DNA from: Acidobacteria bacterium RIFCSPLOWO2_02_FULL_67_21
Lineage (GTDB): Bacteria > Acidobacteriota > Vicinamibacteria > Vicinamibacterales > UBA2999
NCBI GenBank assembly: GCA_001767195.1
Contig: MEKU01000063.1
Coordinates: forward strand, 1-44,736
Direction of reading: 5' to 3'
Length of the DNA: 44,736 nucleotides
Shown here: piece after piece, positions 7,995 through 43,590 of the stretch
Layout of the letters: each line of letters opens with the position of its first letter
Position numbering within the stretch: position 1 is the stretch's first letter
Program-made: the position numbers and the translations under genes
Notes under the pieces: model-generated
Databases searched by the model: none
What the model saw: only the letters and a program-made list of their open reading frames with translations
Told to the model about the DNA's origin: nothing

Positions 7995-8032
7995 AACCAC
8001 CCACGCGTACTAATTCATTTGCCTCGCAAAAT

Positions 8033-8048
8033 GTAGACGTCCGTATAC
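8033..8048. promoter_or_regulatory. Fourth, weaker copy of the GTMKACGBCCNTATAC site (site E)
   Basis: GTAGACGTCCGTATAC, 13/16 identical to the site-C reverse complement; in a convergent intergenic gap with no detected sigma54 element. Confidence 0.3.
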
Positions 8049-8157
8049 ACGTCCACTAGGTAGCGCGCACCGTCGCTCGGGTGCGCCGGTTCATACGCTC
8101 GCTTCGTCCTGATCATCTTGCCAACGCACACACTGAGCCGCCCGCCGTGGGCGTACG

Positions 8158-10395: not shown

Positions 10396-11169
10396 TCACC
10401 CTCGGCGCGGGCCGCGCCGAAACAGCCCGAACGTCACCGCCATGGCGACGAGGGTCGGCACTCCCAGAATCAGCAGTCCCCAGTCCATATACAGACGTCC
10501 GGATACCGGGTCGAACGAGAAGCAACGCCATGCGGTCTGATTCGGCACGGTGTAGAAGGGGATGAACTCGCCCCGCAGCTCCCGTGCCATGATTCGGAAT
10601 CGCTCGACGAAACCGGAGCCACCGAGCAGCGCCCGGGCCACCCGGCCCTCGTGGACCGCCGCCAGAAGCGCACCGTGGTCGTACTGTCCGGTGGCCGGGT
10701 CCAGGCGGTACCAGAAGTCGAGGGCCCCCGTTACGCGCGCGAGCGCCTCCGGCTCGGCGACGGCGAAGAGCCAGTCCGGGTCCCCGGCGAGCCCGAGCGC
10801 GTCGGCCTGGCTTCGCATGTCCGCAGCGGTGTCCTCCTCATCGAAGCTCAAGGCCAGAATGCGATAGTCGCGGCCCGATCCGCCGTCGTCGCGGACGGCA
10901 TCGCGAACCCATCCCAGGAACGGGGAGCAGATGCCGTGGCAGTTCCGATAGAAGAACGTCACCAGGAGGGGCTTGTCCTGCCACAGCGAGGACATGCTGA
11001 CAGTCCGGCCGTCGGCGAGCTGGAGCGGAACGTCGGGCACGCTGCGATTGAGCAGCCGGCTCTCGGTTGGGCTCACCGCACCAGGGGGCTCCGCGCCGAC
11101 GCCGGCAGGGGCGACAAGGACGGCCAGCAGGCAGGCCGCGCTCACCGGGACCGATTTACTGATCCACAC
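10396..11169 (-). CDS. SCO1/SenC-family copper chaperone
   Basis: Thioredoxin fold with FFYRNCHGICSPFLGW (CxxxC), C-terminal TM; follows CuA-containing operon. Confidence 0.85.
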   Translation of the reverse strand: MWISKSVPVSAACLLAVLVAPAGVGAEPPGAVSPTESRLLNRSVPDVPLQLADGRTVSMSSLWQDKPLLVTFFYRNCHGICSPFLGWVRDAVRDDGGSGRDYRILALSFDEEDTAADMRSQADALGLAGDPDWLFAVAEPEALARVTGALDFWYRLDPATGQYDHGALLAAVHEGRVARALLGGSGFVERFRIMARELRGEFIPFYTVPNQTAWRCFSFDPVSGRLYMDWGLLILGVPTLVAMAVTFGLFRRGPRRG

Positions 11170-12754
11170 GGCTCACAGCCGATGTGCCGATCGCCGCGTT
11201 CGGCGTGCTCGGCCGTAAAGATCCAGCCACCGCGGACTTCCCGACCCACGCCTCCGCGCCTCCGGTCGCCCCTTTTCGCCAGCTTCCCACCACTTCGATG
11301 AGGCAGAGGACGGTGGTGAGCAGGAAGACCGACGCAAACACGGCGGCCCAGAGGGCGTAGGTGGCGCCGTGGGCGAGCTCGATCGGATACACCGAGTACC
11401 GTCGCGGAACCGAGTAGGCGCCGCCCACATAGAACATCGCGAGGAAGCCGCAGGCGCTGGCCACCAGCAGGGTGACGAGCACGGTGTGGTAGCCGGTGCG
11501 CTCCGCGCGGCCCTGCGCCTGCAGCCGGCCGCAGTGATAGAAGTGGCCAACAATTATCCCGAAGCCCGCGAGCATGTAGGTATGGAAGTGCGCGGGCACC
11601 CAGAGCGTGTTGTGGAGCCTGACGTTGGCCACGATGGTCGAGTCGATCACCGCGCCGATGCCGCCGATGGCCCATCCCATCAGCCCCAGGAAAAACAGCA
11701 CCGACGCGAGCGTCCACCGCATCGGCGCGTGATAGACGAGCAGCAGCGCGCCGAAGATGGTGACGACGGCCGCGGGGAGCGAGGCGGCATATGAGGCAAT
11801 CTGGCCGATGTACTGGACCGTCGCGGGCTGCACGAAGTCCATGTACAGGTGATGGAAGTAGGCCAGCAGCACGATGAGCAGCACCGAGTTCCACGAGATG
11901 GCGACGATCTTGTTCGCCTTCCAGGGCCGGCCCGCGTAGTCGGGCAGCGCGTCGTACACGACCGCGATCGCCAGGTACATCGCCAGGTTCACCAGCGTGT
12001 GGCCGAACAGGAACGTCAGGTTCTTCATCAGGAGCGCGTCGCTCGGCCTGCCCGTCAGCAGCTCGAGATAGAACAGCACCAGCACGACCACGGCCGCGAC
12101 GAGCGCCACCACGTTGACGATCATGCTGACGGTGACGATGATGACGGCCGGCGGCACCGCCGGCTCGGTCTCGCCGCGGAGATAGTGCCAGCCGAGCGCG
12201 TGGGACAGCGAGTACTTCACCGCCACCGCCCGCAGGATGTCGAGGCTCCAGACGAGCCAGGTGACGCCGAGCACCGTCAGCGCCAGCAGGAACGTCACGG
12301 CCGACCAGGCCGGCCATTCGCCCTGCAGGGGCAGCGGATAGAGGAAGTACCACCCCGCTGCAAACCTGCCCATGAAGACGCTCACCAGGAGCAGCACGAC
12401 CCCCACCACCGTCCCGGCCAGCGCGAACACCGCGACGGCGCTCGACGCCAGCACGTGCTTGCGCAGGGCCTCGCAGGCGCAGGCCATCGACGCGACGAAC
12501 CAGAGGCCCGCCATACCTATGCCGTGCAGCGTCATCATCGGATAGAACCAGGACTCCAGGCCGGCCAGCGCGCCGCCCTGGACCAGGCGCATGTAGACGC
12601 CCAGCAGCGCGAGGATCACGAAAAGCGCGGCGGTAGTCAGCATCCAGGCGTAGATGGTCGACTGCGTCTCCGGCACGGCGAGATCGCGTGACGGGGCTGC
12701 GGCGTCGGCTGCGCCAATCGTGCCGGGGTAGGTGGTGGCGGGCGTCGTGTGCAC
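11156..12754 (-). CDS. Heme-copper oxidase superfamily catalytic subunit, B-family-like, lacking the HPxVY Tyr; candidate CuA-type NO reductase (sNOR/bNOR-like)
   Basis: LFGHTLVNLAMYLAIAVVYDALP in place of GHPxVY; YFHHLYMDF and HNTLWVPAHFHTYMLAGFG conserved. Confidence 0.7.
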   Translation of the reverse strand: MHTTPATTYPGTIGAADAAAPSRDLAVPETQSTIYAWMLTTAALFVILALLGVYMRLVQGGALAGLESWFYPMMTLHGIGMAGLWFVASMACACEALRKHVLASSAVAVFALAGTVVGVVLLLVSVFMGRFAAGWYFLYPLPLQGEWPAWSAVTFLLALTVLGVTWLVWSLDILRAVAVKYSLSHALGWHYLRGETEPAVPPAVIIVTVSMIVNVVALVAAVVVLVLFYLELLTGRPSDALLMKNLTFLFGHTLVNLAMYLAIAVVYDALPDYAGRPWKANKIVAISWNSVLLIVLLAYFHHLYMDFVQPATVQYIGQIASYAASLPAAVVTIFGALLLVYHAPMRWTLASVLFFLGLMGWAIGGIGAVIDSTIVANVRLHNTLWVPAHFHTYMLAGFGIIVGHFYHCGRLQAQGRAERTGYHTVLVTLLVASACGFLAMFYVGGAYSVPRRYSVYPIELAHGATYALWAAVFASVFLLTTVLCLIEVVGSWRKGATGGAEAWVGKSAVAGSLRPSTPNAAIGTSAVSRVDQ

Positions 12755-12775
12755 TGTTGTCTGCTCCAGCCTGCC

Positions 12776-13870
12776 CTAGCGGGCGATGAGCGGAGCCTGC
12801 GTGCTGTGGCTTGCCACGGGCTCCTCGTCGTCAACGGTGAAGTGAGCCTCCATGAGGTGGTGGCCTCCCGCGCAGTACTCCAAGCAGAGCACCAGGAACG
12901 GCCCGGTGCGTTCCATCCGCACGAGCAGCCGGTTCACGTAGCCCGGCATGGCCTGCGTCTGCGCCAGCAGCTGGCGTTCCGGACCGTAGATGCCGAAGCC
13001 GTGCGTCACGTCGAGGCTCGTCACCCGGAACTCGACCAGCTCGCCCCCGAAGAGCTCCAGCGACGTGATTCGCCGGCTCCGCGAAATGTCCTCGACGGTC
13101 ACGATCGGCTCTTCGGAGAATACGAATTCGTACTGTCGTGCCGCCACGTAGATGATCCGGTCGGCCTTCGTGCCCTCCTTCGCGTAGGGCGCCTGCGGCA
13201 GCGTGGCGATGGCGACGCTCGCGACCAGGATGAGACCGATCGTGAACAGTACGCGGCGGAGCTGGAAGGCCTTCGAGACATCGACATCGGTCTGTTCGTA
13301 CGTGCTCAATCCGACGATGCCGAACACGACCACGATGACCAGCGTGATCCCCAGGAAGATGTAGAGGATCATCGACTGCGCGAAGAGCATCTCGGGCGCG
13401 GGCTGTACCTCACGAGCTGCAGGTGGGGCGGCGGCGCCGGCCGCCGCAGGCGGCGCGGCGAGATACTGGATGATGTCCTCGGCGTCATCGGACGACAGCC
13501 CGAGGTTCGGCATCGGCATGCCGTTGTATTTCTTCAGCAGCTCCGTGGCGAGCGGGTCACCCTCGGCCAGCACTTGATCGGGTACGGTGATGAAACGTGC
13601 GAGCCATTCGCGGGAGCGCCGGTCGACGACACCAGCCAGGTCGGGCCCGATATGATCGCCGCCGCCGTTGGTGTGGCAGACGACGCACTTCTCGTCGAAG
13701 AGGGCCCGCCCCTCCTCGACTTCCCGGTTCGCCTCCTGGGCCCACGCCGGCCCCGCCCACATCAGCAGGGCGACCAGTAGTAAAAATTTCAGCCCGCGCG
13801 ATAAAATCTCCCGCAGCCCCGTACCGCCCGGGCGGCCTGTATAGCAGTAATTCGGGTGTGTATATCGCAC
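12776..13870 (-). CDS. Cytochrome c-CuA fusion subunit II of the above enzyme; start codon uncertain
   Basis: N-terminal KCVVCHTNGGG (CxxCH), TM, CuA motif CLEYCAGGHHLM; listed start is GTG at 13870. Confidence 0.75.
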   Translation of the reverse strand: MRYTHPNYCYTGRPGGTGLREILSRGLKFLLLVALLMWAGPAWAQEANREVEEGRALFDEKCVVCHTNGGGDHIGPDLAGVVDRRSREWLARFITVPDQVLAEGDPLATELLKKYNGMPMPNLGLSSDDAEDIIQYLAAPPAAAGAAAPPAAREVQPAPEMLFAQSMILYIFLGITLVIVVVFGIVGLSTYEQTDVDVSKAFQLRRVLFTIGLILVASVAIATLPQAPYAKEGTKADRIIYVAARQYEFVFSEEPIVTVEDISRSRRITSLELFGGELVEFRVTSLDVTHGFGIYGPERQLLAQTQAMPGYVNRLLVRMERTGPFLVLCLEYCAGGHHLMEAHFTVDDEEPVASHSTQAPLIAR

Positions 13871-13883
13871 GACGCGCCCTAGA

Positions 13884-13898
13884 GCAAGGCGCGAGCCA
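13884..13898 (-). promoter_or_regulatory. Predicted sigma54 promoter C (TGGCTCG-CGCC-TTGC)
   Basis: GG-N10-GC spacing, TTGC -12 box; identical scheme to promoters at 17236 and 34506. Confidence 0.75.
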
Positions 13899-13954
13899 GA
13901 TCTGAATCCTCCTGAATGCGCGCGACGCGCGTTCCGGATGCAGACCGGATTTTG

Positions 13955-14848
13955 TCAGGTTGTATAGTGGCGGTTGCGTACCTGTATATAGGCGTCTACA
14001 GGGACCGACGAGGCGTCGCGCTCCCCCTCGGCTTCGCCGCAGGTTTCGACCTCGTCTTCGGCCTCGATCTCCAGCCGTTTGAGGATTCGGTGGAGGGCGG
14101 CGCGGGTCATGTTGGCCTTGCGCGCCGCGGCGCTGATGTTGCCCTCCGTTTCGTCTATGAGATGTTCGACGTAGCGTCGCTGGAACCGCTCGATGGCGCA
14201 CCGCTTCGCTTCTTCGTACGGCAACGACTCCACGCCGGCGGCTTCGGGGCGCTCCGCATGCCCGTGGGTCTGGTGATGGCCTCCATGGAGCTCGTTGAGG
14301 ACCCGGAGCAACAACGGCCGGCGCTCGGATATGGGCACGGCCGACGCCTGCCACTTCGCCCGCAGGGCCTCGGCTGCGGCAAGCCACGACCCCGCCACTT
14401 CTTCGTCGGGAAGCACTGCGTCGATCGCTTCGCGCAGGAGCGCGGCCAGCGCGGGCGCACGTCCGCTGGTCGAGATCGCCACGGCGATGTCGGCGCGACG
14501 GATGACGGCGCCGAGAAATGCAGTGGCCGCCAGCGGGTCGTCTGCCGCGTTGACGAAGATCCGGCGCGCGTCGGCGGCCGCTTCCACCTGGCGATTGACG
14601 TCAGGGGTCGCCGCCGTCACCACGAACCAGACGTTGTCGAGGTCGTCGGGCCGAAAGGGCCGCCGCCGGATTTCCACTCCGGGCAGGCAGATATCTTCTC
14701 GAACCTCCGGGGCGACGACGGTCATCGAAGCGCCTGTCCTCAGCAACGACTCCAGCTTGGTGGCCGCCACCCGCCCGCCACCGACGAGCAGCGCCTTGCG
14801 GCCGTACAGCTTCAGAAAGACGGGGAGAAGCGGCTCCATACGTGCCAC
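13955..14848 (-). CDS. Precorrin-2 dehydrogenase / siroheme synthase N-domain fused to C-terminal Fis-type HTH
   Basis: NAD site ALLVGGGRVAATKLESLL, IFVNAADDP, AISTSGRAPALA; then [50 protein letters not shown] Fis HTH. Confidence 0.85.
   Translation of the reverse strand: MARMEPLLPVFLKLYGRKALLVGGGRVAATKLESLLRTGASMTVVAPEVREDICLPGVEIRRRPFRPDDLDNVWFVVTAATPDVNRQVEAAADARRIFVNAADDPLAATAFLGAVIRRADIAVAISTSGRAPALAALLREAIDAVLPDEEVAGSWLAAAEALRAKWQASAVPISERRPLLLRVLNELHGGHHQTHGHAERPEAAGVESLPYEEAKRCAIERFQRRYVEHLIDETEGNISAAARKANMTRAALHRILKRLEIEAEDEVETCGEAEGERDASSVPVDAYIQVRNRHYTT
13984..13999. promoter_or_regulatory. Enhancer-like palindrome C (GTATATAGGCGTCTAC)
   Basis: Shares GGCGGTT-N(7-8)-palindrome architecture with sites at 17325 and 34604; overlaps the 3' end of the siroheme-Fis gene. 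Confidence 0.65.
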
Positions 14849-14853
14849 ATCGC

Positions 14854-16359
14854 TCAGAATCGGAACGTCAACTCGAGGTAGCCGAAGTCCGCATCGGCGC
14901 CTCTCGCGTAAATGGCGTCGGTGACCGACCTGCCTGCCGCCCGGCCGTAGTAGACCGTCAGGGACGTATAGCCGTTGACGCGATAGTCTCCGCTCACGTC
15001 GTAAAGCGTCGCCAGCCCCGTGCGGGCGCTTGACGGCCGGCCGGAAAAGCCGAACGTCGAGGACTGGAACGCGCCACCGCCCGCGTACCAGAGGTCGTCA
15101 GGGCTCGCCAAGCGAATGGCGTGGACATCGCTTCGAAGGGTGAGGCTTCGTGAGGGTCTGAAGATCGCTTCACCGAAGGCGTCGCCCGTGTTCATCATGT
15201 TGAAGAACGGAAACCGGGCATAGATGCGCGGTGTGGGCAGCACCTGAAAGAACGTTCCGTGCCGTCCGTCGCTCGGATTGCCGTCACCCGACCCGTAATT
15301 GTAGCCGCCGCGAAACCACGGCTCGATCGCCTCGAGCGCCTGCGGCTGCCAGCCGGCCTCGACGGCGAAGGTGCCGGCTCGCTGGTCCAGTACGCCCCAG
15401 GCGCCGATCTGAACCGCGCCCCATGCCAGCAGATCGACGGCGCCCGCCGCGGTCGGCACGGTTCGAAGGTAGTGTCCGCCGAACGTGCCGAGGTCCACTG
15501 GCTCGGTATCGGCGGCTCTCGCGGCCGCCGGTCGGTTGTCCGTCTTCAGGACGCCGTCGCGACGATCGAAATACCCGAGACCGAACACCCGCCATTCCCC
15601 GGCGCTCGTTCCCGTACCCGTCTGTCCCGTCAGCGCTCCGTAGAGCACATTGATGTCGAGGCCGCTCCACCCGTCGACGACAAACACGCCGCGCGTGGGC
15701 CGGCCGGCGAAGGCCGTGACGTTCAACGTCCTGCCGGCGAGCGCCCACTGAGCCCCGTCGAAACTGCGGCCGACGTGCGAGAAGGCAAAATTGCCGAGCA
15801 GGCGATGGGCGATCCGATCGCGCTTGACGGCGGCCAGCGTGGCGTTTCGGGGCATGACCTCCGTGCCGTCGATGAACTCCATCCGGCCGGCTTTGAATGA
15901 GTGGCCGGCGATGCCTCCGAGACCGGTGAAGCGCACCGAGGCCTGTTTGACGAAGAGCTCCGCGACGTTGGTCCTCCCGTTGTTGGCCGCGAAGTACGTG
16001 GCGCCGAGGCCCAGCTGTCCTTGCGAGCCCGGCGCAATCGCGTCGTCGGGGAGGCCCAGCAGGATCGGAACCGCGAACTCGATCTGCCAGTCGAACCGCG
16101 CCTTCTTCTGCGAGAGCCCGAAGCGTGCAATCGACCCGGGGTACACGTACCTGTCATCGGCGCTGGCCTCAAACCAGTTCCAGGCTTCGGCCCGGGTGCG
16201 CAGCGACCCCGCAACGACGACATCCCCCATCGTGAGCGGCGGAGTGGCCTGGGGCTGAGCCGGAGGCTGAGGGGGGGCTTGAGCAGGGGTCTGAGCCAGC
16301 CCTTCCGCTGGGCCAAGAAGAAGAGAAAGAAGGAGAGCTGCAACGATCATGACGGGCAT
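14854..16359 (-). CDS. Outer-membrane channel, alginate-export (AlgE)-like family
   Basis: Signal peptide, beta-rich sequence ending in aromatic F (YLELTFRF), RTRAEAWNWFEA start of barrel; operon with SUMT. Confidence 0.6.
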   Translation of the reverse strand: MPVMIVAALLLSLLLGPAEGLAQTPAQAPPQPPAQPQATPPLTMGDVVVAGSLRTRAEAWNWFEASADDRYVYPGSIARFGLSQKKARFDWQIEFAVPILLGLPDDAIAPGSQGQLGLGATYFAANNGRTNVAELFVKQASVRFTGLGGIAGHSFKAGRMEFIDGTEVMPRNATLAAVKRDRIAHRLLGNFAFSHVGRSFDGAQWALAGRTLNVTAFAGRPTRGVFVVDGWSGLDINVLYGALTGQTGTGTSAGEWRVFGLGYFDRRDGVLKTDNRPAAARAADTEPVDLGTFGGHYLRTVPTAAGAVDLLAWGAVQIGAWGVLDQRAGTFAVEAGWQPQALEAIEPWFRGGYNYGSGDGNPSDGRHGTFFQVLPTPRIYARFPFFNMMNTGDAFGEAIFRPSRSLTLRSDVHAIRLASPDDLWYAGGGAFQSSTFGFSGRPSSARTGLATLYDVSGDYRVNGYTSLTVYYGRAAGRSVTDAIYARGADADFGYLELTFRF

Positions 16360-17216
16360 GATTCCTCCCGGGCTCCACCGGCCGTAAAGGCCAGCATGTG
16401 CATCACCGGAGCATCTTCGTGGCGGCTCCGGAGCAAAGCGCCCTCGTACGCCGCCAGCTTGTCGCGCAGGCTAACCACCCGCCCGACCACCGCCAGGGTC
16501 GGGGAATCGAGCGCGGCGGATCGGGCGTCCGCGGCAGCGCGTGCCACGGTCGTCACGACGACCCGCTGGCGTGCTGTCGCCCCGGCGTTGACGAAGGCGA
16601 CTGGCAGGTCGGCAGGGTAGCCGCGCTCGAGGAGCTGAGGGCTCCACGTTCCGACCGTCTGCAGGGCCATGAGGAGCACGAGCGTCGTGCGCGGATGGTA
16701 GGGGGGGATCGACAGCTCGGGCTCGTCTTCCTGCCGATGCGCCGACAGGATGCAGACCGCGTCGGCGACGCCACGGTGCGTGACGGGAATGCCAGCCAGC
16801 GCGGGCGCCGCTACGGCGCTCGACACGCCGGGCACGATCTCGAAAGGGATGCCGAGCTGCGACAGACGGAGCGCCTCTTCGCCCGTGCGCCCGAGCACCG
16901 TGGGGTCGCCCCCCTTGAGGCGCACGACGCGCCTGCCGTCGCGGGCGAACCGGACCAGCAGTTCCGTGATCGCCTCCTGGGGCATGTGGTGGTCCCCGCA
17001 GCGCTTGCCGACGAACACCAGCTCCGCGTCGAGGTCTTCGAGGAGACGCGCGTCCACGAGGCTGTCGTACAGCACGACGTCAGCTTCGCAGAGGATGCGC
17101 CACCCCCGCAGCGTGATGAGATCGGGATCCCCAGGGCCGGCCCCTACGAACACCACGCGTCCCGTCGCGCCGTGCACGCGCTGTCGCTTCGGACGTTCGT
17201 ATGCGACGACAGTCAT
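16347..17216 (-). CDS. cobA: Uroporphyrinogen-III C-methyltransferase (SUMT)
   Basis: VFVGAGPGDPDLITLRGWRIL, VVRLKGGDPTVLGRTGEEA, IPVTHRGVADAV. Confidence 0.9.
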   Translation of the reverse strand: MTVVAYERPKRQRVHGATGRVVFVGAGPGDPDLITLRGWRILCEADVVLYDSLVDARLLEDLDAELVFVGKRCGDHHMPQEAITELLVRFARDGRRVVRLKGGDPTVLGRTGEEALRLSQLGIPFEIVPGVSSAVAAPALAGIPVTHRGVADAVCILSAHRQEDEPELSIPPYHPRTTLVLLMALQTVGTWSPQLLERGYPADLPVAFVNAGATARQRVVVTTVARAAADARSAALDSPTLAVVGRVVSLRDKLAAYEGALLRSRHEDAPVMHMLAFTAGGAREESCPS

Positions 17217-17235
17217 GGCATTGCCCGGCAACTCA

Positions 17236-17250
17236 GCAAGGGACGAGCCA
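17236..17250 (-). promoter_or_regulatory. Predicted sigma54 promoter B (TGGCTCG-TCCC-TTGC)
   Basis: Reverse complement of GCAAGGGACGAGCCA; upstream of SUMT operon. Confidence 0.75.
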
Positions 17251-17324
17251 GGCCCGGACCGAGCAGAACCCGGCCAATTGCGTGATTTCCTGTGACGCAA
17301 GCTGACTATTGGCGGTTCGCGCGT

Positions 17325-17340
17325 GTATAGGGCCGTAGAC
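17325..17340. promoter_or_regulatory. Enhancer-like palindrome B (GTATAGGGCCGTAGAC)
   Basis: Between divergent SUMT and napD; preceded by GGCGGTT at 17311-17317. Confidence 0.65.
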
Positions 17341-17493
17341 AGGGATTTGAGTGAGTGATTGCACCAGCGAGTCTACAGAGCTGTATCTCGAAGTGCGCGA
17401 CTCGCAGGATGCTGCTCGCGCCAGATCCGCTGAAAGCGTGGAAGGCTAGTGGCATCCAACGTGCGTGGGCGTTTCACCGTTCCCGTTGCCGAG

Positions 17494-28967: not shown

Positions 28968-29990
28968 TCACGCCACGAGAGCGGTTTGGCCTTGTACCCA
29001 CCAGCGCTCCAGGTCGGGCAGGAAATAGCGAAGGCGGCACTTCTTGAGCTCGCGCTCGGTCTCCAGCACCGCGTAGTCGGCGGTACCGACGACAGACGCC
29101 AGTCGAGTCACAAGGTCCCGGCAGCTCGTGGCATCAGGACCATGGACCATGCTGTAGAGGGCGTACGGAAAGCCCGGAAGGCGCTCGCGCGCGTAGCAAT
29201 GGCTCACCTGCGGTGTCCGCGCCAGTCGGCGCCCGGCCTCATCCAGTTCCTCGCCGCACACGTTCCACACGACCATGGCGTTGCCGCGCACGCCGATACT
29301 CCGCTGGCGGAAGGTCGCCACGTACCGCCGGACCGCGCCGCCGAGGTGCTGGCGGGCGAACTCCAGAAGCTCCTCCTCGCCGCATTCGGCGAGGTCGGCC
29401 AGCGAGGCAAACGGCCGTTCGATCAGCGGAAGGGGAGTCTGCAACGCGCGGAAGAGCCGCTCGTGGCGGGCCGACAGATCGAGCGGCGGCAGATCGGGCA
29501 GATCCTGCGCGGTCGTCGAGTTCTCGCCGGACAGCAGGTCGAAGTTGACGCCCACCTTGTATGTACCCGTCCGTCGAGCCGCAAAGAAGCGTGCTTCGGC
29601 GCGGCTCTCGAGTCGTGCGAGGGTCTCTTTGAGCCCCATCGTCCGCGGAACGGCGATCGTGAACCAGAGGTTGTACGCATGCCTGCGCAGGTAGTTGTGG
29701 GTGACGGTCGGGTGGGCGTTGACGACGGCAATCACGCGGGGAAGCTCCTGCTCGGGCACGGCTGCCGCGCATAGGGCGGTTTCGTACCCGAGCAGGCTCC
29801 CTTCGAGCACGGCCGAGATCTCCCGGAGCTTGCCTTCGCTGCTCCACGTACGGAGCTGTACCAGCACGTCGCTCGACTGGAGTTCGAGACGCCGCCCCAG
29901 TTCGGCGAAGGGGCGAACGCAGAGAGGAACACCTTCCTGGATCGCTCTCGCCAGCGCATTCTCTTCTCGAGGCGACAGCTTCACTGACAT
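28968..29990 (-). CDS. nirDL: Siroheme decarboxylase, fused NirD-NirL (AhbA/AhbB family, two Lrp-like units)
   Basis: Two copies of the HTH/AsnC-like unit; HAYNLWFTIAVP and KKCRLRYFLPDLERWW; in nirS-J-F operon. Confidence 0.85.
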   Translation of the reverse strand: MSVKLSPREENALARAIQEGVPLCVRPFAELGRRLELQSSDVLVQLRTWSSEGKLREISAVLEGSLLGYETALCAAAVPEQELPRVIAVVNAHPTVTHNYLRRHAYNLWFTIAVPRTMGLKETLARLESRAEARFFAARRTGTYKVGVNFDLLSGENSTTAQDLPDLPPLDLSARHERLFRALQTPLPLIERPFASLADLAECGEEELLEFARQHLGGAVRRYVATFRQRSIGVRGNAMVVWNVCGEELDEAGRRLARTPQVSHCYARERLPGFPYALYSMVHGPDATSCRDLVTRLASVVGTADYAVLETERELKKCRLRYFLPDLERWWVQGQTALVA

Positions 29991-29995
29991 CTCGA

Positions 29996-31207
29996 TCACA
30001 GTCCTGCCGTGAAGGCCCGCCACAGGCCGAAGATGCCGGACGGAGAACGCAACGTTTCGCTGTCCTCGATGGCGTAGGTACGCGCGTTCACGAGGAAGAG
30101 CTTGTCTTCCGCGTTGGCGGTGATGAGGGCGTGGCTCCCGCGCGGCATGAACTCGATGTGATAGATCCGCGCGCCGACGCGGAACGTGTGGACGACCTCG
30201 AGCGATTCGACATCCACCACCTGTACGAATGCATCGTCCGCCTCCCCCGAGAACGTCACCCACACATGGCGCTCGCCCGGCGCCCGCACGGCGTAGACGG
30301 GGTGGCCTCGCAGCTCGATCGAGCGCTTGAACTTCCAGGTGTAGCGGTCGAGCACGGCGAGGCGCTTCTCGCCGACCAGCGGGACGAAGACCGAGCCCTG
30401 CGCCACCGCCCACGACGCGAGGTGCGGGAGCTTCTTCGGCGCGGCCCGGTCGTACGCGCGGCCGGGCTCGCGCAGCGACACGACCCGCGGCAACGGCTCC
30501 GGGGCTTCCAGGTCGAGCACCGTGACGTCCGCCGAGTCGAGGTGCCCGACGACGTAGTAGCGGCCGTCGGGGGTGATCATGGCGTCGTACGGCTCCCCGG
30601 CCGGCGTGGCGATGCGGCGCTCCAGGACGGGCTCCTCGCCCGAGGCATCAACGATCCAGACCTCGGCGCCTTCGATGAGCGCGCAGACGAAACGGTTCCC
30701 CGGCGCGTCGACGACGCCGGTGACGCGCGAGAGGAGCCGCCGGCCGTTGCGTTCGAACTCGCCGGGAATGCGGCGCACGACGCCCAGCGTGCGAGCATCC
30801 AGGATCGTGACGCCGCCCGGCACATATTCGGCCGTCGCCACGAAACGCCCATCCTGGCTGATGGCCATATCGATGGAACTGTTCGATGTCTGCACCTCGC
30901 CCGCACGCTCGAGCGACTGCAAATCGATGCGCGTGAGCTTGCCGCTGCGGGTGGCGATGTAGCCGTAATCGAGCCAGCGGGAGAAGGTCATCAGCGCGTG
31001 CTGCAGGTTTCCGAGGCCCTCGATGCGCCCCACCACGCGACGCTCCGCGAGGTCGTAGACGGCGAGGCTGGCGGAGTTCCGCTCGACCACGAAGACGCGC
31101 GAGCCGATGCCGCTTGCCCCGCTCGCCGGGTCCGCCGCGATTCTCGTGCCTGCAAGGCCGGCAATACACGTCACGAGCAACGTCACTCCCGCTCGTCTCA
31201 TACTCAT
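29996..31207 (-). CDS. nirF: Heme d1 biosynthesis protein NirF
   Basis: Beta-propeller with VFVVERNSASLAVYDL, YIATRSGKLTRIDL; signal sequence; next to nirJ. Confidence 0.85.
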   Translation of the reverse strand: MSMRRAGVTLLVTCIAGLAGTRIAADPASGASGIGSRVFVVERNSASLAVYDLAERRVVGRIEGLGNLQHALMTFSRWLDYGYIATRSGKLTRIDLQSLERAGEVQTSNSSIDMAISQDGRFVATAEYVPGGVTILDARTLGVVRRIPGEFERNGRRLLSRVTGVVDAPGNRFVCALIEGAEVWIVDASGEEPVLERRIATPAGEPYDAMITPDGRYYVVGHLDSADVTVLDLEAPEPLPRVVSLREPGRAYDRAAPKKLPHLASWAVAQGSVFVPLVGEKRLAVLDRYTWKFKRSIELRGHPVYAVRAPGERHVWVTFSGEADDAFVQVVDVESLEVVHTFRVGARIYHIEFMPRGSHALITANAEDKLFLVNARTYAIEDSETLRSPSGIFGLWRAFTAGL

Positions 31208-32421
31208 ACAACGGCCTCCCGTGCGTCGGCCGTCGCCGCGTTGACCTTGGAGCTCTCGGGCGACACGCCGACTTCGCAGTCGGTCATCACACAGGCCGGG
31301 TCGGGCGCCCAGAGTGCTCCGTACCGGGCCAGGGCACGCTCCCGATGCGATCCACGGCAGACGGCCTTGTAGGCACACGCCCCGCACCGCCCCTGCAGCA
31401 GTTCCTCGCGGTTGCGGAGCGCCTGGAGGAGAGGATGCGCGAGGATTTCGGCAAACGTGTGCCGTCGGATATCTCCGACGACCTGCGTGGTGAAGAACTG
31501 GTCGGGATGCACCCGGCCTCGATGATCGATGGCGAGGATGCGCTCGCCCGCCGAGTTGCCGCCGCGACGTCGAAGGACGGCCTCCACGTGTGTGGCGGCT
31601 CCGTTGCCATGTCGCGCCTCTATCCAGCGGAGAAAACAGGGTCCGTCCGAGTCGTTGCCACCGGTGACCACGCGAAGAGCCGCGCCACGCCGCACCAGCC
31701 GTTCGGCTGTTTCGAACAGCTGGCCGAGCACTGCCCGGCTTTCGGCGGGGGACAGGTCTTCAGCGGCGAGTGTGAATCCGCGGCCGGAGTACAGGAGGTG
31801 CGACAGATAGAACCGATCGACGCCGTTCATGACGGCCCATTCGACGAGCGGTTCAACTTGAGCGGCGTTCAGGCGTGTCACCGTCATCCGAACGCCCACC
31901 CACATACCGGCCGCCTTGGCGTACGCCACGCCGAGTGCCGCACGCTCGAACCCCCCCTGCATGCCGCGGTAGGAGTCGTTGAACGGCGCCAGGCCGTCCA
32001 GACTGACGCCGACGTATGAGACGCCGGCGGTGGCGAGGGCCCCGGCCATGCGCGCGTCGAGCGGGACGCCGCTCGTCGACAGCATCGGATGGAGGCCGAC
32101 CGCGTGCGCGTGCGCGGCCAGCTCGAGGAGATCGTCACGAAGGAGCGGCTCGCCGCCGCTCAAGATCAGGACGCGGACACCCGCTTCTGCAAGGCTGTCG
32201 ACGAGTCGTCTCGCCTCGGTCGTCGTCAGGTCATGGGGTGAAGGCGCGGAGGTGGCGGCCGCGTAGCAGTGCGGGCAGCGAAGGTTGCAGTGATGGCAGA
32301 CATTCCACACGACGACGGGAGGCGCCACACGCGCCCCGTAGCGGGCAGGGGCATGAGCCGCGACGGTATCAGCCGCGACTCGCCCCAGCGCAACGTTGAC
32401 GAGCTCGGTGACCTCGAGCAT
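31204..32421 (-). CDS. nirJ: Heme d1 biosynthesis radical SAM protein NirJ
   Basis: CNLRCPHCYA, GGEPLLRDDLLELAAHA, C-terminal SPASM-like CGACAYKAVCRGSHRERALA. Confidence 0.88.
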   Translation of the reverse strand: MLEVTELVNVALGRVAADTVAAHAPARYGARVAPPVVVWNVCHHCNLRCPHCYAAATSAPSPHDLTTTEARRLVDSLAEAGVRVLILSGGEPLLRDDLLELAAHAHAVGLHPMLSTSGVPLDARMAGALATAGVSYVGVSLDGLAPFNDSYRGMQGGFERAALGVAYAKAAGMWVGVRMTVTRLNAAQVEPLVEWAVMNGVDRFYLSHLLYSGRGFTLAAEDLSPAESRAVLGQLFETAERLVRRGAALRVVTGGNDSDGPCFLRWIEARHGNGAATHVEAVLRRRGGNSAGERILAIDHRGRVHPDQFFTTQVVGDIRRHTFAEILAHPLLQALRNREELLQGRCGACAYKAVCRGSHRERALARYGALWAPDPACVMTDCEVGVSPESSKVNAATADAREAVV

Positions 32422-32430: not shown

Positions 32431-34458
32431 TCAGTAGACGTCGCCCGCCGTGTTGAAGACGTTGAACTTGCCCGTGGGCGTGACGAGCCAGTCGCCCTCG
32501 ATCCGGGTCTTCTCCTTGAGCGTCTTGTCGTCGTAGACGATGAGCTCGCCCTCTCTGTCCCAGACGGACACCCACACCTCGGTGCCGGCCTTGTTGTACT
32601 CGAAGTGGACCGCGCGCCCGCGTGCGGAGGCGGTGAAGCACCGATCGATCTTCCCCTCCTTCTTCGAATAGATGCAGATCTGGCGTGTGCCGTTCGGTTC
32701 GTTCGAGAGCGGCGAGTCGAGCCACACCCACGGCGACTTCGGATGCGTCTTGATGAAGAGGCCTCCCGGCTCCCCGAGCGCCACCTCACGCACGACCTTC
32801 CAGGCATGCTGCGGCTTCCTGGCGGGGTCGGCGCCGTAGATGACGAGCTTCCCCTCGCCCATGTGCGTGGTGCCGTTCACCCAGCCGTACTCGGGATCCT
32901 CCCAGTTGGCGCCTCGCCCCGGATGCGGCCGCACGCCGGTCTTGAACTTCGTGACCAGCGTGCCGTTCTTCACATCGATGACGGCCATCTGATCGCGCAT
33001 GTTTGCGGCGACCATGAAGTACTGTTTCGTGCGATCCCAGCCGCCGTCGTGCAGGAAGCGCTCCGCGGCGATCTTCTTGGTGACAGGGAAGCCGGGTTTC
33101 GAGTAGTCGACGATCGCCACGTGCCCGGACTCCTTCAGGCTGACCACCCACTGCGGCCCGTGGTGAGAGGGCACGATGGCGGCCACGCGGACCTCTTTCA
33201 GCGCCTCGCCCGTATCGTAGGCCGGCGTCGTGATGTCCACGACCGTCTTGGGCTCGAGCGTCTGCCCGTCGAAGACGACGTACTGCGGCGGCCAGTAACA
33301 GCCTTCGATGAGCAGCTTGTCCTCGTACCCCTTGTACTTCGAGGCTTCGATGCTCCGCGCGTCGACGCATCCTTTCACCTGAGCCACGAGCGTGGGCGTC
33401 TCGGGCCAGAGGTCGATCATCGACACGCGGCCGTCGCGGCCGACGGCATAGAAGTAGCGGCCGGTCGACGAGGAGCGCAGGATGTGCACGGCAAACCCCG
33501 TCTCGATGACGCCCGCGAGCTCCTTGGTATCGCCGTCGACGATGGCGACTTTGCCGGCGTCGCGCAGGATGACGCCGAAGTAGTTGTCCCACTGACGCTT
33601 CGTGACCGGCGTCTTGGGCCGGCTCGCAGGGGGTACGAGCAGCTTCCAGCTTTCGCGGATCTCCTCGAACGACACCGCAGGCGGGTCGGGCGCCGGCATC
33701 AGGAGGTAGGCCGACATGAGCCGCACGTGCTCGGGTGTCAGAATCCCCTCGTTCCCGAGCGCCGGCATCCCCCCAGGCGTGCCGTTGGTGAGGATGTTCT
33801 GGACGGCCTTCGCGCCCAGTTCGGCGGTATGCGCCGGCTCGATGTTGGGTCCCGTCGCGCCCTTTCGGAGCAGCCCGTGGCAGCCGGCACAGCGGTCGAA
33901 GTAGAGGTTCTTGGCCTGCTCGAACGCGGCTCCGGTCAACACCGGAGCGGGCGCCTCAGACGGGGCCGCCACGCTCGGCGATTGCGTGCTCCGGGCATCG
34001 ATCAGGGCGAGCACCGGCTGTACGGTCGCTGCGCCGGGGGCCTTCTTCGCGCTTTCGATCTCGATATAGGCAAGGACCTGCTGCGCTTCCTGATCGGACA
34101 AGCGGAGAGATTTCATCCGGGACTGGCCCCGCGCTGCGACAAGCTTGCGAGCCTCGGGGTCGGTCTCCACCATCGTCTCCGAATCCTTCAGCCATCGAAC
34201 GAGCCATGCGTGCTCCCGGCGTCTGTGCACGTTGCCGAGATCCGGACCGAGGAGTGACCCGTCGCCGATGGTGTGGCAACCGACACACTTCTTCTGAAAA
34301 ATGCTGCCGCCTGTTGCGATGTCTTCCGTGCTGGAACCGGCCGCAGCCGACCCGTCGACGGCGCCAAAGGCCGCGAGACCAAGCAACGCCGCCAGCAAGG
34401 TGGCGAAGCGCACGACGCGTCGCACACCGCAGCGCACCGACACTGTATCCGTCGTCAT
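32431..34458 (-). CDS. nirS: Cytochrome cd1 nitrite reductase with an additional N-terminal cytochrome c domain
   Basis: Two CxxCH motifs (CVGCH, CAGCH) then d1 propeller (DLWPETPTLVAQVKGCVDARSIEASKYKGYEDKLLIEGCYWPPQYVVFDG); ATG at 34458 with GGAGG RBS. Confidence 0.92.
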   Translation of the reverse strand: MTTDTVSVRCGVRRVVRFATLLAALLGLAAFGAVDGSAAAGSSTEDIATGGSIFQKKCVGCHTIGDGSLLGPDLGNVHRRREHAWLVRWLKDSETMVETDPEARKLVAARGQSRMKSLRLSDQEAQQVLAYIEIESAKKAPGAATVQPVLALIDARSTQSPSVAAPSEAPAPVLTGAAFEQAKNLYFDRCAGCHGLLRKGATGPNIEPAHTAELGAKAVQNILTNGTPGGMPALGNEGILTPEHVRLMSAYLLMPAPDPPAVSFEEIRESWKLLVPPASRPKTPVTKRQWDNYFGVILRDAGKVAIVDGDTKELAGVIETGFAVHILRSSSTGRYFYAVGRDGRVSMIDLWPETPTLVAQVKGCVDARSIEASKYKGYEDKLLIEGCYWPPQYVVFDGQTLEPKTVVDITTPAYDTGEALKEVRVAAIVPSHHGPQWVVSLKESGHVAIVDYSKPGFPVTKKIAAERFLHDGGWDRTKQYFMVAANMRDQMAVIDVKNGTLVTKFKTGVRPHPGRGANWEDPEYGWVNGTTHMGEGKLVIYGADPARKPQHAWKVVREVALGEPGGLFIKTHPKSPWVWLDSPLSNEPNGTRQICIYSKKEGKIDRCFTASARGRAVHFEYNKAGTEVWVSVWDREGELIVYDDKTLKEKTRIEGDWLVTPTGKFNVFNTAGDVY

Positions 34459-34505
34459 ACCGATCCTCCGTTGCATACACGGCCAGTCCATACGCGGGCA
34501 CGCGA

Positions 34506-34520
34506 GCAAGCTGCGAGCCA
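34506..34520 (-). promoter_or_regulatory. Predicted sigma54 promoter A for nirS (TGGCTCG-CAGC-TTGC)
   Basis: Reverse complement of GCAAGCTGCGAGCCA; GG-N10-GC spacing; 48 bp upstream of nirS ATG. Confidence 0.8.
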
Positions 34521-34603
34521 GGCGGCGAGCACACGAGGATCGTCGTTTTTCAGGGGATCCGCGCCGCCTGGCGCGCTGGCCTGGCTAGCGGCGGTTCACA
34601 GAT

Positions 34604-34619
34604 GTATAGGGCCCTATAC
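34604..34619. promoter_or_regulatory. Enhancer-like perfect palindrome A (GTATAGGGCCCTATAC)
   Basis: Perfect 16-bp palindrome between response-regulator stop and nirS promoter; preceded by GGCGGTT at 34590-34596. Confidence 0.7.
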
Positions 34620-34629
34620 GAAGGCAGCT

Positions 34630-36087
34630 TTACTTGGGGAACAACGGGTCGCTCGGTCTTTCGGATCCGATCGGCGCCTCTTCCTGACCCTCTTCGGGAT
34701 CGGCGTCGGCGTCGATTTCGCCTTCGGCCGCGAGCCCGAGCCGCTTGAGGATCCGGTGGAGCGCGGCGCGCGTCATGTCGGCTTTGCGTGCTGCGGCGCT
34801 GATGTTGCCCTCGGCCTCGTGCATGAGGTGCTCGACGAAGCGCCGCTGGAAGCGTTCGATGGCCGACCGCTTCGCCTCTTCGTAGGGCACCGACTCCGCG
34901 TCCTCGGGCTGCCAGTCGAGGTCGTCGTCCTCGAGCGCAATATCGGCGGGACTGACCTCGTCGCCACGCGCCATGAGCGCCGCGCGCTCGACGACGTTCT
35001 GGAGCTCCCGGACGTTGCCGGGCCAGTCGTGTGAGATGAGGAGCCGGAGAGCCCCTGGCGACAGCCGCTTGGCGACCTTCTCCGGCGACGTCAGGCGATC
35101 GAGGAACAACTTTGCGAGCAGCGGGATGTCTTCGATCCGCTGGCGCAGCGCCGGGACGGCGATGCGCATGACCGACAGGCGATAGTAGAGGTCGCGCCGC
35201 AGCCTGTTCTCGCGGAGGAGGCGACGGGCTTCCTCGTTGGTCGTGGCAATCACCCGGACGTCCACCTGGATGGGGGTCGACGAGCCGAGCGGCAGGACCT
35301 CTCGCTCCTGCAGCGCGCGGAGGAGCTTGCCCTGCAATCCGAGCGGCATCGACGCGACCTCGTCGATGAGCAGCGTTCCGCCGTCGGCCTCGAGAAAGAG
35401 TCCCTTGCGGTCGCGGTCGGCGCCGGTGTACGCGCCCTTCTTGCAGCCAAAGAGCTCCACTTCGGCAAGCGTTTCGGGCACCGCCGCCGCGTTGAACGCG
35501 ACGAAGGGGCGGCTCGCCCGCGGGCTCTCGACGTGGATCGCCCGCGCCACGAGCTCCTTGCCCGTACCGCTCTCGCCGAAGATGAGGACCGTGGCGCTCG
35601 TCGGCGCCACGCGGCGAATGGCTTCGATGACCGGCTGCATGTGGCGGTCGCGGCTGTAGATGCCGCGAAAGTCGTAGGTGCCGCGGAGTTCCGCCCGCAG
35701 CCGTGCGATCTCCTTCTGGTCCTGGATCTCGTGGAGCGCCCGCCTCGTGACCACGAGCAGCTCGTCGTTGTTGAACGGCTTGGTGAGATAGTGAAACGCG
35801 CCGCGCTTCATCGCGTCGACGGCCGAGTCGATCGTCCCGTAGCCCGTGAAGAGGATGACCTGTGCCTGAGGCCACCGCTCGCGCACGCAGTCGAGCAGCG
35901 ACAGGCCATCGCGTCCCGGCATGCGGATGTCGGAGAGCACGATATCCGCGGGGTCCCGCTCGAGCAGCTCGAGCGCCTCTTCGGCCGAGTGAGCGACGGC
36001 AATCTCGGCCGGGAGCTTGCCCAGGACCAGGGCGACGCCGCGCGCCAGGTCGCGCTTGTCATCGACGACGAGGATACGTGCGCTCAT
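34630..36087 (-). CDS. NtrC-family sigma54-dependent response regulator
   Basis: Receiver ([22 protein letters not shown]), AAA+ ([14 protein letters not shown] loop, DLYYRL), Fis HTH. Confidence 0.95.
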
Positions 36088-37703
36088 GACGGCGATGCCT
36101 CCACAGCATCCGCGCTGGCTTCGACCGCGTCGAACGCGGGGAGCACGACGGTGAACGTACTCCCTCGCACCTCGGAGCTCTCGACCGCGAGCACGCCGCC
36201 GTGGGCAGCGAGGATATCGCGCGCAACGGTGAGGCCGAGGCCCGTTCCCTCGGATTTCGTCGTGTGAAACGCGGTGAAGATCCGCTCTTGCTCCTCGGGT
36301 GGGATGCCGACGCCCGTGTCCACCACGTCGATGCGCAGCCGGCCCTCCTCCGTTCGGCCCAGGCGGAACGTCAGCGTTCCGCCATCAGGCATCGCCTCGA
36401 TCGCGTTCAATCCCAGGTTCACGAGCACCTGCCGGAGCTGGTCCGGGTCGCCGTACACGCGTGCGCCCGACCCGGTGACGTCTTCGCGATGGAGCGTGAC
36501 CCGACAGTCTTCCGCCTGGGGCATAAGCGTCCGTTCCGCATCGGCGACGATTTCCGCGAGCGAGACCTCCCGCCGTTCGGGCGGCCGTTGTCGCGCGTAC
36601 TCCAGGAGATCCCACACGATCTTCTTGCACAGGTTCGCGTTCCTGAGGACCGTGCCGAGATGGTCGTGCAGCGGGTGCTGCGGGCGCACCTCGTCAAGCG
36701 CATGTTGCGCGAACAGCGCAATGGCCCCCAGCGGGTTGTTGAGCTCATGGGCGAGGGCTGCGGCCAGCTTGCCGACGACGGCCATCCGTTCCTCTTGCAC
36801 CACCTGGGCCCGGGCGGCGGCGAGGCGTTCGCGGTCGGCGTGGAGCACGCGCACGAGACTCGCCACGATCAGACCGCATACGACGACCATGACGGCCACC
36901 GCCGTCCCGGTGGCCGCCTGCAGCATCCAGTCGGCCGGCGGTGCGACGCAGCCACCTCCGCCGTCCAGCACGCACCCGGGCGGGAGCCATCCACTGACTT
37001 CGGTGATGCCGAGGACGAGGACGAACAGCGCGATGCCCACCGCTGCGCGCCGCGGCCAGGGCGGGTCGAGCACGACCGCGGCGATCGCCGCATGGAAGAC
37101 GAAGAAGCCGGCAAACGGGTTCGAAAGTCCTCCGGCGTGGTGGACCAGCCAGGCGAGGATGCCCACGTCCACGGCGACCTGGCCGACCAGGGCGTTCTGC
37201 GTCCCTATGCGCCGTGTGCCGTACACGCTCAGGACCGTGTTGAACACAAAGAGCAGCGCGACGCCGGCCCAGAGGTACGGAGCCGCTCCAGACTCCACGC
37301 GGGGGCCATACGACGTCGCAAACGCCACGACGGCCACCGAGACCAGTACGGCCACCCATCGGAGCCCCAGGAGCCACCCCGCAAGCGCTTCCCGGAGCAA
37401 CGCGGCCGCGCTCTCCGGGCGTGCCGGCGTCTCGAGACCGGAATCCAGCGACGGGAGTACCCGTCCAAAGAGGTACAAACCGGCCGCCACGCCGCCGACG
37501 AGTGCGGCGGTGAGATCGCGGCCGAGGTACGCGAGGCGGCTGGTCTCGAGCGGGAACTCCCGGAGCCACAGGCCCTCGATCACCCCGTACGCGGCGAAGA
37601 TGACCGCCGCCGACCCGATCCAGACGAGCAGGGCCACGGCGAGACGGCCCGCAAGGAGCGGGGCCGTATTGATCGGTTCGCCGGCCGGCTCCTGCGCGTT
37701 CAC
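36084..37703 (-). CDS. Membrane sensor histidine kinase
   Basis: Multi-TM N-terminus, HisKA ([13 protein letters not shown]), HATPase ([41 protein letters not shown]); GTG start, overlap with RR. Confidence 0.9.
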
Positions 37704-37713
37704 CCGTGGCCCG

Positions 37714-38142
37714 TCACTTGGCGTCCTCGAGATAGCGCATATGGCAGGTCTCGCAAGTCTCATACAGATCGTTGCCTGCCTGTTCGAGTGCATCGCCCCG
37801 CTTCGCCTCGGTGATCTTCGAGAGGGCTGTCGCCTGTGCCACCAAGGTGCGCGAGAACGCCGTCCACGCGGCTGTGTCCCGGGCGAGCGCCGGGGTCATC
37901 AGGAGGCGGCCCGAGGCAGCAAGCGTTTCGGCCGCCTTTCCAAGGGCCGCCCACTGTTCGTCGTTTCGAGGCGATTCCGATGCCGCCCTGAAGATCGCCT
38001 CCGATGCAGGTACAGTCATCGTCGTCATGACTTCCTTGACCGTGCGCGGTGGCTGTGCGGGCTCCTGGGCGGCCGCGCTCGCCATGGTCCACGCAAGCAC
38101 GGCGGCCGCCGCGGTCCCGACGATGGCACAGGATTGATGCAT
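37714..38142 (-). CDS. Monoheme cytochrome c (c'/c556-like), cotranscribed with HK-RR
   Basis: Signal peptide and C-terminal heme motif YETCETCHMRYL. Confidence 0.75.
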   Translation of the reverse strand: MHQSCAIVGTAAAAVLAWTMASAAAQEPAQPPRTVKEVMTTMTVPASEAIFRAASESPRNDEQWAALGKAAETLAASGRLLMTPALARDTAAWTAFSRTLVAQATALSKITEAKRGDALEQAGNDLYETCETCHMRYLEDAK

Positions 38143-38736: not shown

Positions 38737-39600
38737 TCAGCGGCGCTGTCGACCTTTGCCTTCTCCAATGGGGTTGACGGCGTGGATCGGGGGGTCCGCC
38801 AACGCGGATTCGATATGCGTGTCAGGATCGAGACGCGCGATCCGGTTCACGAAGGCGACCGCCTCCAGGCGCGTATGCACTTTGAGCTTGCTGAAGATGT
38901 TCTGGATGTGATTTCTGACAGTGGCCTTGCTGATACAGAGCTGGTCGGCAATGGCAGCCGTGCTCGCGCCCGTGCGCATGATCGTGATGACCTGCAGCTC
39001 CCGCTGGCTCAGCTCGCTGATCGGCATCACCACGTCCTGACTCGTGGTCAGCTTGAGCTTCGTCTGCGCCAGCTGCTGGCGGACCAGCAGTTCGATTTGA
39101 TGCGCGGCCGTGACATCCCGGAAGAGGTGCACGATCGTCGGCGGCCGGTCGTGACCGATGGGAACGGCGACACAGCTCACGTCGATCCACAGGGGTTGCC
39201 CGGTCTTCGTCCGCGTGGCCATGTCGAAGTGCTCGACCAGATCGCCTCCATGCAGCAGCGTCTTGATCGGGCAGGGCCACCCGCAGACCCGGTTGCCGTT
39301 GGTATCGCAGCCTCCAAACACGTCGCGGCAGTACTGGCCGACCACCTGCTCGGCGGGATAGCCCATGATGGCTTCGGCCGCGTGGTTCCAGAACAGAATC
39401 TCGCCCTGGGCTCCGCTCACCCAGACGCCATCGGCGGTGTTCGCAAACAGCCTGGAGACTTCTCCGAGCGGCTCGTCGGCTTGCGGACTTCCGGCGTCTG
39501 GCGACGCTGCGTCCCCGGACGCCGGCAGCGACGCCGACGTCTTGTCGCCTCTCCGCCGGGATTGCGCCACACGATCCGGTCGGCTGAGTTGGGGTGTCAT
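38737..39600 (-). CDS. PAS domain LuxR-type regulator (paralogue of 575-1216)
   Basis: PAS (LFWNHAAEAIMGYPAEQVVGQYC) and HTH_LuxR (LSQRELQVITIMRTGASTAAIADQLCISKATVRNHIQNIFSKLKVHTRLEAVA). Confidence 0.85.
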   Translation of the reverse strand: MTPQLSRPDRVAQSRRRGDKTSASLPASGDAASPDAGSPQADEPLGEVSRLFANTADGVWVSGAQGEILFWNHAAEAIMGYPAEQVVGQYCRDVFGGCDTNGNRVCGWPCPIKTLLHGGDLVEHFDMATRTKTGQPLWIDVSCVAVPIGHDRPPTIVHLFRDVTAAHQIELLVRQQLAQTKLKLTTSQDVVMPISELSQRELQVITIMRTGASTAAIADQLCISKATVRNHIQNIFSKLKVHTRLEAVAFVNRIARLDPDTHIESALADPPIHAVNPIGEGKGRQRR

Positions 39601-42900: not shown

Positions 42901-43590
42901 TCAGGAGAGGGCGACCGCCTCCAGTGCGGCGCGGTCCGCAAGCAGAAATCCGTCCCGATCGGTGCGGACGAGGCCCTCCTTGCCCCAGCGGCTCATGATC
43001 CGGATCGCGGTCTCGATCGTCGTGCCGATCATGTCGGCGAGCTCCTGGCGCGAGAGCGCGAGGGGGATGAAGGTCCCCTCCGGTGTGTGTTGTCCCATGG
43101 TGTCGGCGAGCTTCAGGAAGAATCGTGCAAGCCGTGCGTCGATCCGACCGGTGGACAGTTCGGTGAGTCGATTCGTCAACTCGACCAGGCGATGGGTGAG
43201 CCCGGTCAGGAGCCCCCGCACCATCGAGGGGTAGGTCTCCAGCAGCGAGAAGAACGCCTGGCGGGGGATCAGGAGGCAGGTCGCGTCTTCGAGGGCGACC
43301 GCGCTGGCGGGATACGGCCGCGACTCGTAGACGGCGACGGCGCCGACCGGGTCTCCGGGACCGAAGATCTCCAGGATGAGATCGCTGCCTCGCGCCGTGG
43401 TCTTGAACACCTTCACCCGGCCGGACATGACGGTGTACAGGGAGCCCGAGTCGTCTCCTTCATGAAAGAGGTACTCGCTCCGCTCGAACTCGCGCAGGCT
43501 CGCCACCGCCGCGAGCCGCTGCCGGTCCTCGCCCGACAGCCGGCGGAACATCGGCGTCCGACGCAGGATGTCATCCACGGAATCGGCCAT
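42901..43590 (-). CDS. Crp/Fnr-family transcriptional regulator
   Basis: cNMP-binding fold plus HTH LSRQELADMIGTTIETAIRIMSRWGKEGLV. Confidence 0.9.
   Translation of the reverse strand: MADSVDDILRRTPMFRRLSGEDRQRLAAVASLREFERSEYLFHEGDDSGSLYTVMSGRVKVFKTTARGSDLILEIFGPGDPVGAVAVYESRPYPASAVALEDATCLLIPRQAFFSLLETYPSMVRGLLTGLTHRLVELTNRLTELSTGRIDARLARFFLKLADTMGQHTPEGTFIPLALSRQELADMIGTTIETAIRIMSRWGKEGLVRTDRDGFLLADRAALEAVALS

Follow-up and report, generated by a model that had tools for sequence, protein, structure and literature searches.

Why does an enzyme of a tetrapyrrole pathway end in the DNA-binding domain of a transcriptional activator? The question is raised by a gene, here called FUS, in a 44,736-nucleotide stretch of acidobacterial DNA (the window; genome G000), which also encodes nirS, a NirJ-like radical SAM protein, a NirF/N-like propeller protein, a fused siroheme decarboxylase, nap genes and a qNOR. 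FUS consists of a precorrin-2 dehydrogenase (PC2DH) of the CysG-N/Met8p type, followed by a C-terminal Fis-type helix-turn-helix (HTH) domain (Pfam, NCBIfam). An original prediction held that the HTH closely matches that of the NtrC-type regulator and that the protein might act as a competitor or feedback sensor at the enhancers of this regulator. Feature coordinates are given in Table 1.

Table 1. Coordinates of the features discussed, as positions in the window.
Feature	Position	Strand	Remarks
FUS, PC2DH-HTH fusion gene	13955..14848	-	single open frame, 297 aa from GTG
Rossmann/NAD-binding part, residues 10-113	14510..14821	-	Pfam NAD_binding_7, E 6e-24
Sirohm_synth_M, residues 123-142	14423..14482	-	Pfam; missing from G026 ortholog
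Fis-type HTH, residues 207-259	14072..14230	-	match to NtrC-type regulator HTH
UAS palindrome 1 of cyt c-CuA/COX1 operon	13983..14000	.	inside FUS ORF
Second, weaker tandem palindrome, 22 bp away	13961..13978	.	inside FUS ORF
sigma54 -24/-12 promoter of cyt c-CuA/COX1 operon	13883..13899	-	CTGGCTCGCGCCTTGCT
UAS palindrome of SUMT-porin-fusion operon	17324..17341	.	second copy 17302-17319
sigma54 promoter of SUMT-porin-fusion operon	17235..17251	-	
UAS palindrome of nirS	34603..34620	.	directly after regulator gene; second copy 34581-34598
sigma54 promoter of nirS	34505..34521	-	
NtrC-type response regulator, HTH donor	34630..36087	-	receiver, sigma54-activator, HTH
Partner histidine kinase	36084..37793	-	
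nirS, cytochrome cd1 nitrite reductase	32431..34509	-	start probably downstream of sigma54 promoter
Radical SAM protein, NirJ-like	31204..32421	-	
Cytochrome d1-type propeller protein, NirF/NirN-like	29996..31387	-	
Siroheme decarboxylase, NirDL/GH fused	28968..30413	-	
Uroporphyrinogen-III C-methyltransferase (SUMT/NirE role)	16347..17300	-	first gene of FUS operon
Outer-membrane protein (Alginate_exp)	14854..16359	-	second gene of FUS operon
Cytochrome c-CuA subunit II	12776..13870	-	first gene of third sigma54 operon
Heme-copper subunit I	11156..12754	-	GHTLVN where oxidases have GHPEVY

Domain architecture of the fusion protein

The fusion is real: the gene is one reading frame and recurs in two further assemblies, G011 and G026. 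Its likelier start is the ATG at residue 4 (14839) and not the GTG, because ME(P/S) is also the start in these two genomes. The NAD-binding and active-site motifs are kept, as had been claimed. Pfam NAD_binding_7 and NCBIfam cysG_Nterm (TIGR01470; 118 bits, cut-off 62.3) both match over cut-off, the Rossmann part contains GGGRVAATK and the catalytic Asp in NAADDP, and in an alignment of residues 8-178 with Salmonella CysG siroheme synthase (PDB 1pjq, E 1e-22) the equivalents of D104 and P133 are both retained; in CysG, D104 is catalytic and P133 is the tetrapyrrole-platform proline (PMC7018833). The protein thereby resembles the N-terminal module of CysG and the bifunctional precorrin-2 dehydrogenase-ferrochelatase Met8p, down to the GGG Rossmann motif. 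Unlike CysG, it has no attached SUMT module, SUMT being encoded separately in the operon, and carries the C-terminal HTH; the position of the phosphorylatable S128 of CysG is occupied by Thr. The dimerization and helical domains, which build the active-site cavity, are present in G000 and G011 and absent in G026.

Pfam HTH_8 matches residues 219-258 with 23-26 bits against a curated cut-off of 22, and the recognition helix is intact. Over 53 residues, the domain differs at 7 positions from the HTH of the regulator (ESLPYEE...ILKRL), so that the earlier hand count of 46/53 identities stands on recounting; the neighbouring regulator is supported as the source. The regulator itself is of NtrC type, with receiver, sigma54-activator and HTH parts. 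Unlike this family, FUS has neither a receiver nor an AAA+ domain: also in line with the original prediction, Pfam gives no Sigma54_activat match, which places the protein outside the sigma54 enhancer-binding activators. A Fis-like HTH without AAA+ is likewise found in RegA/PrrA (weak PDB match to 1umq, E 0.0017), which, unlike FUS, carry a receiver rather than an enzyme. A structure prediction built from five sequences reached a pLDDT of 43 overall and of 70-80 for the helix-turn-helix, the HTH helices being its sole usable part. Literature searches in open-access papers found no described precorrin-2 dehydrogenase-HTH fusion, in agreement with the earlier statement that no example was known.

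Operons, enhancers and promoters

The 4.19-Mb genome contains just three copies of a near-perfect sigma54 -24/-12 element, CTGGCTCGNNCCTTGCT (at most one mismatch), one per operon, preceding nirS, the SUMT-porin-fusion operon and the cyt c-CuA/COX1 operon. A palindromic UAS lies about 74-85 bp upstream of each promoter, with UAS-to--24 spacings of 85 bp at cox2, 83-84 bp at nirS and 73-74 bp at SUMT, and each UAS is accompanied by a weaker second palindrome 22 bp further on. The enhancers originally placed at 13984, 17325 and 34604 are all real and shared by three operons, each with a sigma54 promoter downstream; only their starts had to be shifted by one base, to 13983, 17324 and 34603. At a tolerance of three mismatches, the consensus 18-bp palindrome is found genome-wide only at nirS (34603) and SUMT (17324), the copy at 13983 being more degenerate. 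The arrangement recurs at nirS, SUMT or cox2 promoters of G011, G026, G009 and G039, not all of which carry the fusion. Given this shared architecture and the presence of rpoN in the genome, the adjacent NtrC-type regulator is the likely activator of the three operons. Tandem palindromes upstream of a sigma54 promoter are a known pattern from NorR (PMC1274295); the regulatory logic is thus familiar, the operon set and the relative of the binder being new. As the listed ORF starts of SUMT (17300, TTG) and nirS (34509) overlap their sigma54 promoters, the real start codon of SUMT must lie further downstream, as probably does that of nirS.

Further palindromes were observed outside this set. An orphan UAS-like palindrome, TGTAGACGTCCGTATACA, lies at 8032-8049 between convergent genes and has no sigma54 promoter. 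A second cyt c-CuA/COX1 operon, comparably placed in G026, has similar palindromes and a sigma54-like element in front of it (L048, 9481-9740); the orphan copy may thus be a relic. In G039 (L052, 10985-11002), the histidine kinase-regulator operon has a UAS palindrome in front of it as well, which suggests autoregulation, although no obvious sigma54 promoter is seen there.

Since subunit I of the third operon has Asn in the motif GHTLVN, as listed for sNOR and CuA-NOR at the active-site Tyr position (PMC8756737, residue table), the cyt c-CuA/COX1 operon (11156-13870, minus strand) is a candidate NO reductase of the sNOR/CuA-NOR type and may reduce NO. The qNOR at 1907-4339 is encoded in addition to this candidate of the nir sigma54 regulon. 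Elsewhere in the genome, a second, CysG-like enzyme (dehydrogenase plus SUMT) is encoded beside sulfite reductase. General siroheme supply thus has its own CysG, and the fused copy is the nir-linked one.

Other genes of the cluster deserve mention in their own right. The siroheme decarboxylase (28968-30413, minus strand) is a single chain of 481 aa in which AsnC-like and NirDL-type HTH stretches each occur twice, and represents a NirDL-GH fusion. The Alginate_exp outer-membrane protein sits between SUMT and the dehydrogenase in the operon for d1-heme precursors, and also precedes the dehydrogenase in G011, G026, G009 and L042. Two PAS-LuxR regulators and one Crp/Fnr regulator are encoded at 575-1267, 38737-39600 and 42901-43599, all on the minus strand.

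Distribution among relatives

The named relatives are Acidobacteria MAGs, of which two bear a groundwater label. G011 encodes a full-length fusion with 79% identity in the same gene order as G000 (SUMT-porin-fusion-cyt c/CuA-COX1), and G026 (JACPCS010000077) a shortened fused version. Three orthologs in related nir clusters, those of G009 (JACPPO010000108), G088 (JAHFUI010000137) and G039, end near residue 190-207 and lack the HTH. The original prediction had named absence in relatives and a frameshift or assembly error as arguments against the fusion; the former thus holds for these three orthologs and fails for G011 and G026, while the latter is ruled out by the recurrence of the fusion in other genomes, with three assemblies agreeing. 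No further full-length fusion was found at E<=1e-62 among 162 genomes of the order and a sample of 396 of the phylum, a threshold that would have missed fusions of less similar enzymes, and a plasmid search returned no place covering 80% of the query.

In a tree of the PC2DH Rossmann part, fused and unfused orthologs are separated with 97% support, which is consistent with a single gain of the HTH; a tree of the HTH itself (159 nt) did not resolve the branching. Because the three orthologs from related nir clusters lack the domain, the sequences mark the fusion as a lineage-specific, derived gain that is not part of d1-heme supply in general.

A nucleotide alignment shows that the G026 copy has lost about 75 codons in one in-frame deletion, by which the Sirohm_synth_M and helical regions are gone and Rossmann and HTH parts are kept. 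In CysG, the Rossmann and helical domains of a domain-swapped dimer together form the tetrapyrrole cavity (PMC7018833). Having lost cavity-building domains, the G026 version should not be a precorrin-2 dehydrogenase; another PC2DH copy is encoded in this genome. Its Rossmann part shows no acceleration, with a branch of 0.072 against 0.068 and 0.087. As a contig break falls in the gene, with a 97-bp exact overlap between C81 and C42, a strain mixture is possible; given this assembly branch, the domain loss is suggestive only, and the deletion may have arisen recently or represent a strain variant.

Origin of the HTH

Regulator-nirS and fusion-cox2 share the order HTH, short tail, UAS, sigma54 promoter. 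From the HTH end to the -24 element, the three fusions span 172-182 bp and three regulators 168-240 bp. Regulator and fusion remain similar for about 30 nt beyond the HTH, with z about 6-7 in the full-length fusions and a weak 2.5 in G026. In the 50 bp upstream of the -24 element, no homology between the two loci is recognisable. The stop codon TAG of the G011 regulator falls inside a UAS half-site (GTATAG); the equivalent frame of the G000 fusion reads GTAGAC, has no stop and runs on, so that the cox2 UAS is coding sequence for the C terminus of FUS. With the third enhancer located inside the 3' end of the gene, the HTH would have arrived together with a copied nirS promoter. The simplest history that we infer is that the 3' end of the regulator gene and the nirS promoter were copied in front of the cox2 operon and joined in frame to the dehydrogenase gene before it, an event that would also have brought the oxidase operon under the regulator.

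The same observations fit an account in which the HTH is a by-product of this promoter copying on an ordinary dehydrogenase and at most aids dimerization. Gene order, extended similarity and HTH-to--24 distances all speak for it, as does the cox2 UAS-to--24 spacing, which fits nirS and not SUMT. Moreover, among the genomes examined the fusion was found only where the cyt c-CuA/COX1 operon follows; in the stretches examined, none of the unfused orthologs has this operon behind it. The missing homology upstream of the -24 element is a point against it. The account explains the origin of the domain but not its maintenance.

Selection on the HTH

In the comparisons of the three fusions, pN/pS in the 53-codon HTH was 0.22, 0.17 and 0.20 (bootstrap ranges 0.07-0.45), and in the flanks 0.91, 0.94 and 0.94 (permutation p 0.0014, 0.0008 and 0.0006), where the flanks comprise linker plus tail for the full-length pair and the tail alone for comparisons with G026. 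As synonymous sites in the HTH have diverged, the constraint acts on the protein and not on overlapping DNA. The 13-residue recognition segment is the same as that of the regulator in G000 and G011, and differs in G026 by the conservative exchanges M-to-L and L-to-I. The HTH is therefore probably functional, as judged from its sequence evolution. A neutral passenger is disfavoured by this contrast between HTH and drifting linker and tail, and a purely dimerizing domain would have no need of a recognition helix; we thus regard the by-product account as unlikely for the present-day protein. Between G000 and G011, the Rossmann and central parts show pN/pS of 0.20 and 0.12. From this constraint and the retained catalytic Asp and Pro, dehydrogenase activity probably persists in these two genomes, and regulation may be secondary. 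With the DNA-binding tail kept by selection, the enzyme may have come to restrain its own pathway as well.

Proposed mechanism

For the reading of FUS as an enzyme-derived DNA-binding competitor at the enhancers of the regulator, damping the sigma54 nir regulon, we see about an even chance. An ancestral stand-alone, nir-linked precorrin-2 dehydrogenase would have taken up, in frame, the Fis HTH from the neighbouring NtrC-type activator. A FUS dimer is predicted to occupy the tandem palindromes before nirS, its own SUMT-porin-fusion operon and the cyt c-CuA/COX1 operon. Lacking AAA+ and receiver, it cannot open sigma54 promoters, so that activation by FUS is unlikely and it should compete with the phosphorylated activator, damping a regulon that includes its own gene. 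This negative feedback, which would reach nirS, the synthesis of d1-heme precursors and the third operon, might be adjusted by the NAD/tetrapyrrole state of the enzyme part. The recurrence of the fusion, the constrained HTH with its conserved recognition segment and the enhancer-promoter arrangement count in favour. So do the housekeeping CysG beside sulfite reductase, as it leaves FUS free for another role, and the G026 copy, which retains Rossmann and HTH although domains that form the tetrapyrrole site are gone. That the enzyme parts are strongly constrained too, that just three genomes carry the fusion, and that PAS-LuxR and Crp/Fnr regulators are encoded nearby, counts against.

A bolder form, in which the pathway enzyme has become a feedback repressor of the sigma54 regulon through the DNA-binding domain of its activator, its NAD/tetrapyrrole state gates enhancer occupancy, and the G026 version, with catalysis lost, is a pure Rossmann-HTH redox/NAD sensor, is put forward tentatively and seems rather doubtful to us.

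The damping could also come about off the DNA, if FUS and the regulator paired through the Fis dimerization helix into inactive heterodimers instead of competing as homodimers. The Fis domain takes part in the dimerization of NtrC-type proteins, and the shared HTH includes the long first helix; yet this very segment is the least conserved one (HLIDETEG, HLMFEADG and HLMEKTGG in the fusions vs HLMHEAEG in the regulator), and we hold such pairing to be quite improbable. A positive or architectural role, with FUS on the weaker tandem palindrome recruiting the activator or tethering the enzyme at its own operon, would make use of the unequal quality of the tandem sites at each promoter, but such sites are also present in G009 and G039, which lack the fusion; this role appears very unlikely. 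That FUS is decaying, is a lineage-specific oddity with no present function, or results from an assembly error, as the few genomes and the G026 deletion with its nearby contig break might suggest, deserves hardly any credence, for three assemblies agree and both domains of the full-length pair evolve at low pN/pS.

The competitor reading sets FUS beside known systems. Trigger enzymes are proteins that are both enzyme and transcription factor, e.g. PutA, NadR and BirA. Like them, FUS joins an enzyme to a predicted DNA-binding domain whose target would be its own pathway; unlike them, it took its HTH from the activator of that pathway. This capture and the operator embedded in the fusion gene are its distinctive features. 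Rex-type proteins are NAD(H)-sensing repressors, with which the shortened G026 version shares the combination of a Rossmann NAD fold and an HTH; unlike Rex, it is of unrelated origin and has the opposite domain order and a different HTH class.

The natural variants with and without HTH, together with three predicted operators, make the proposal sharply testable. If true, it offers a readable case of the birth of a feedback loop, in which one local duplication hands a biosynthetic enzyme the DNA address of its activator and adds an operon to that activator, and by which d1-heme supply, nitrite reduction and NO reduction could stay in step in denitrifying Acidobacteria.
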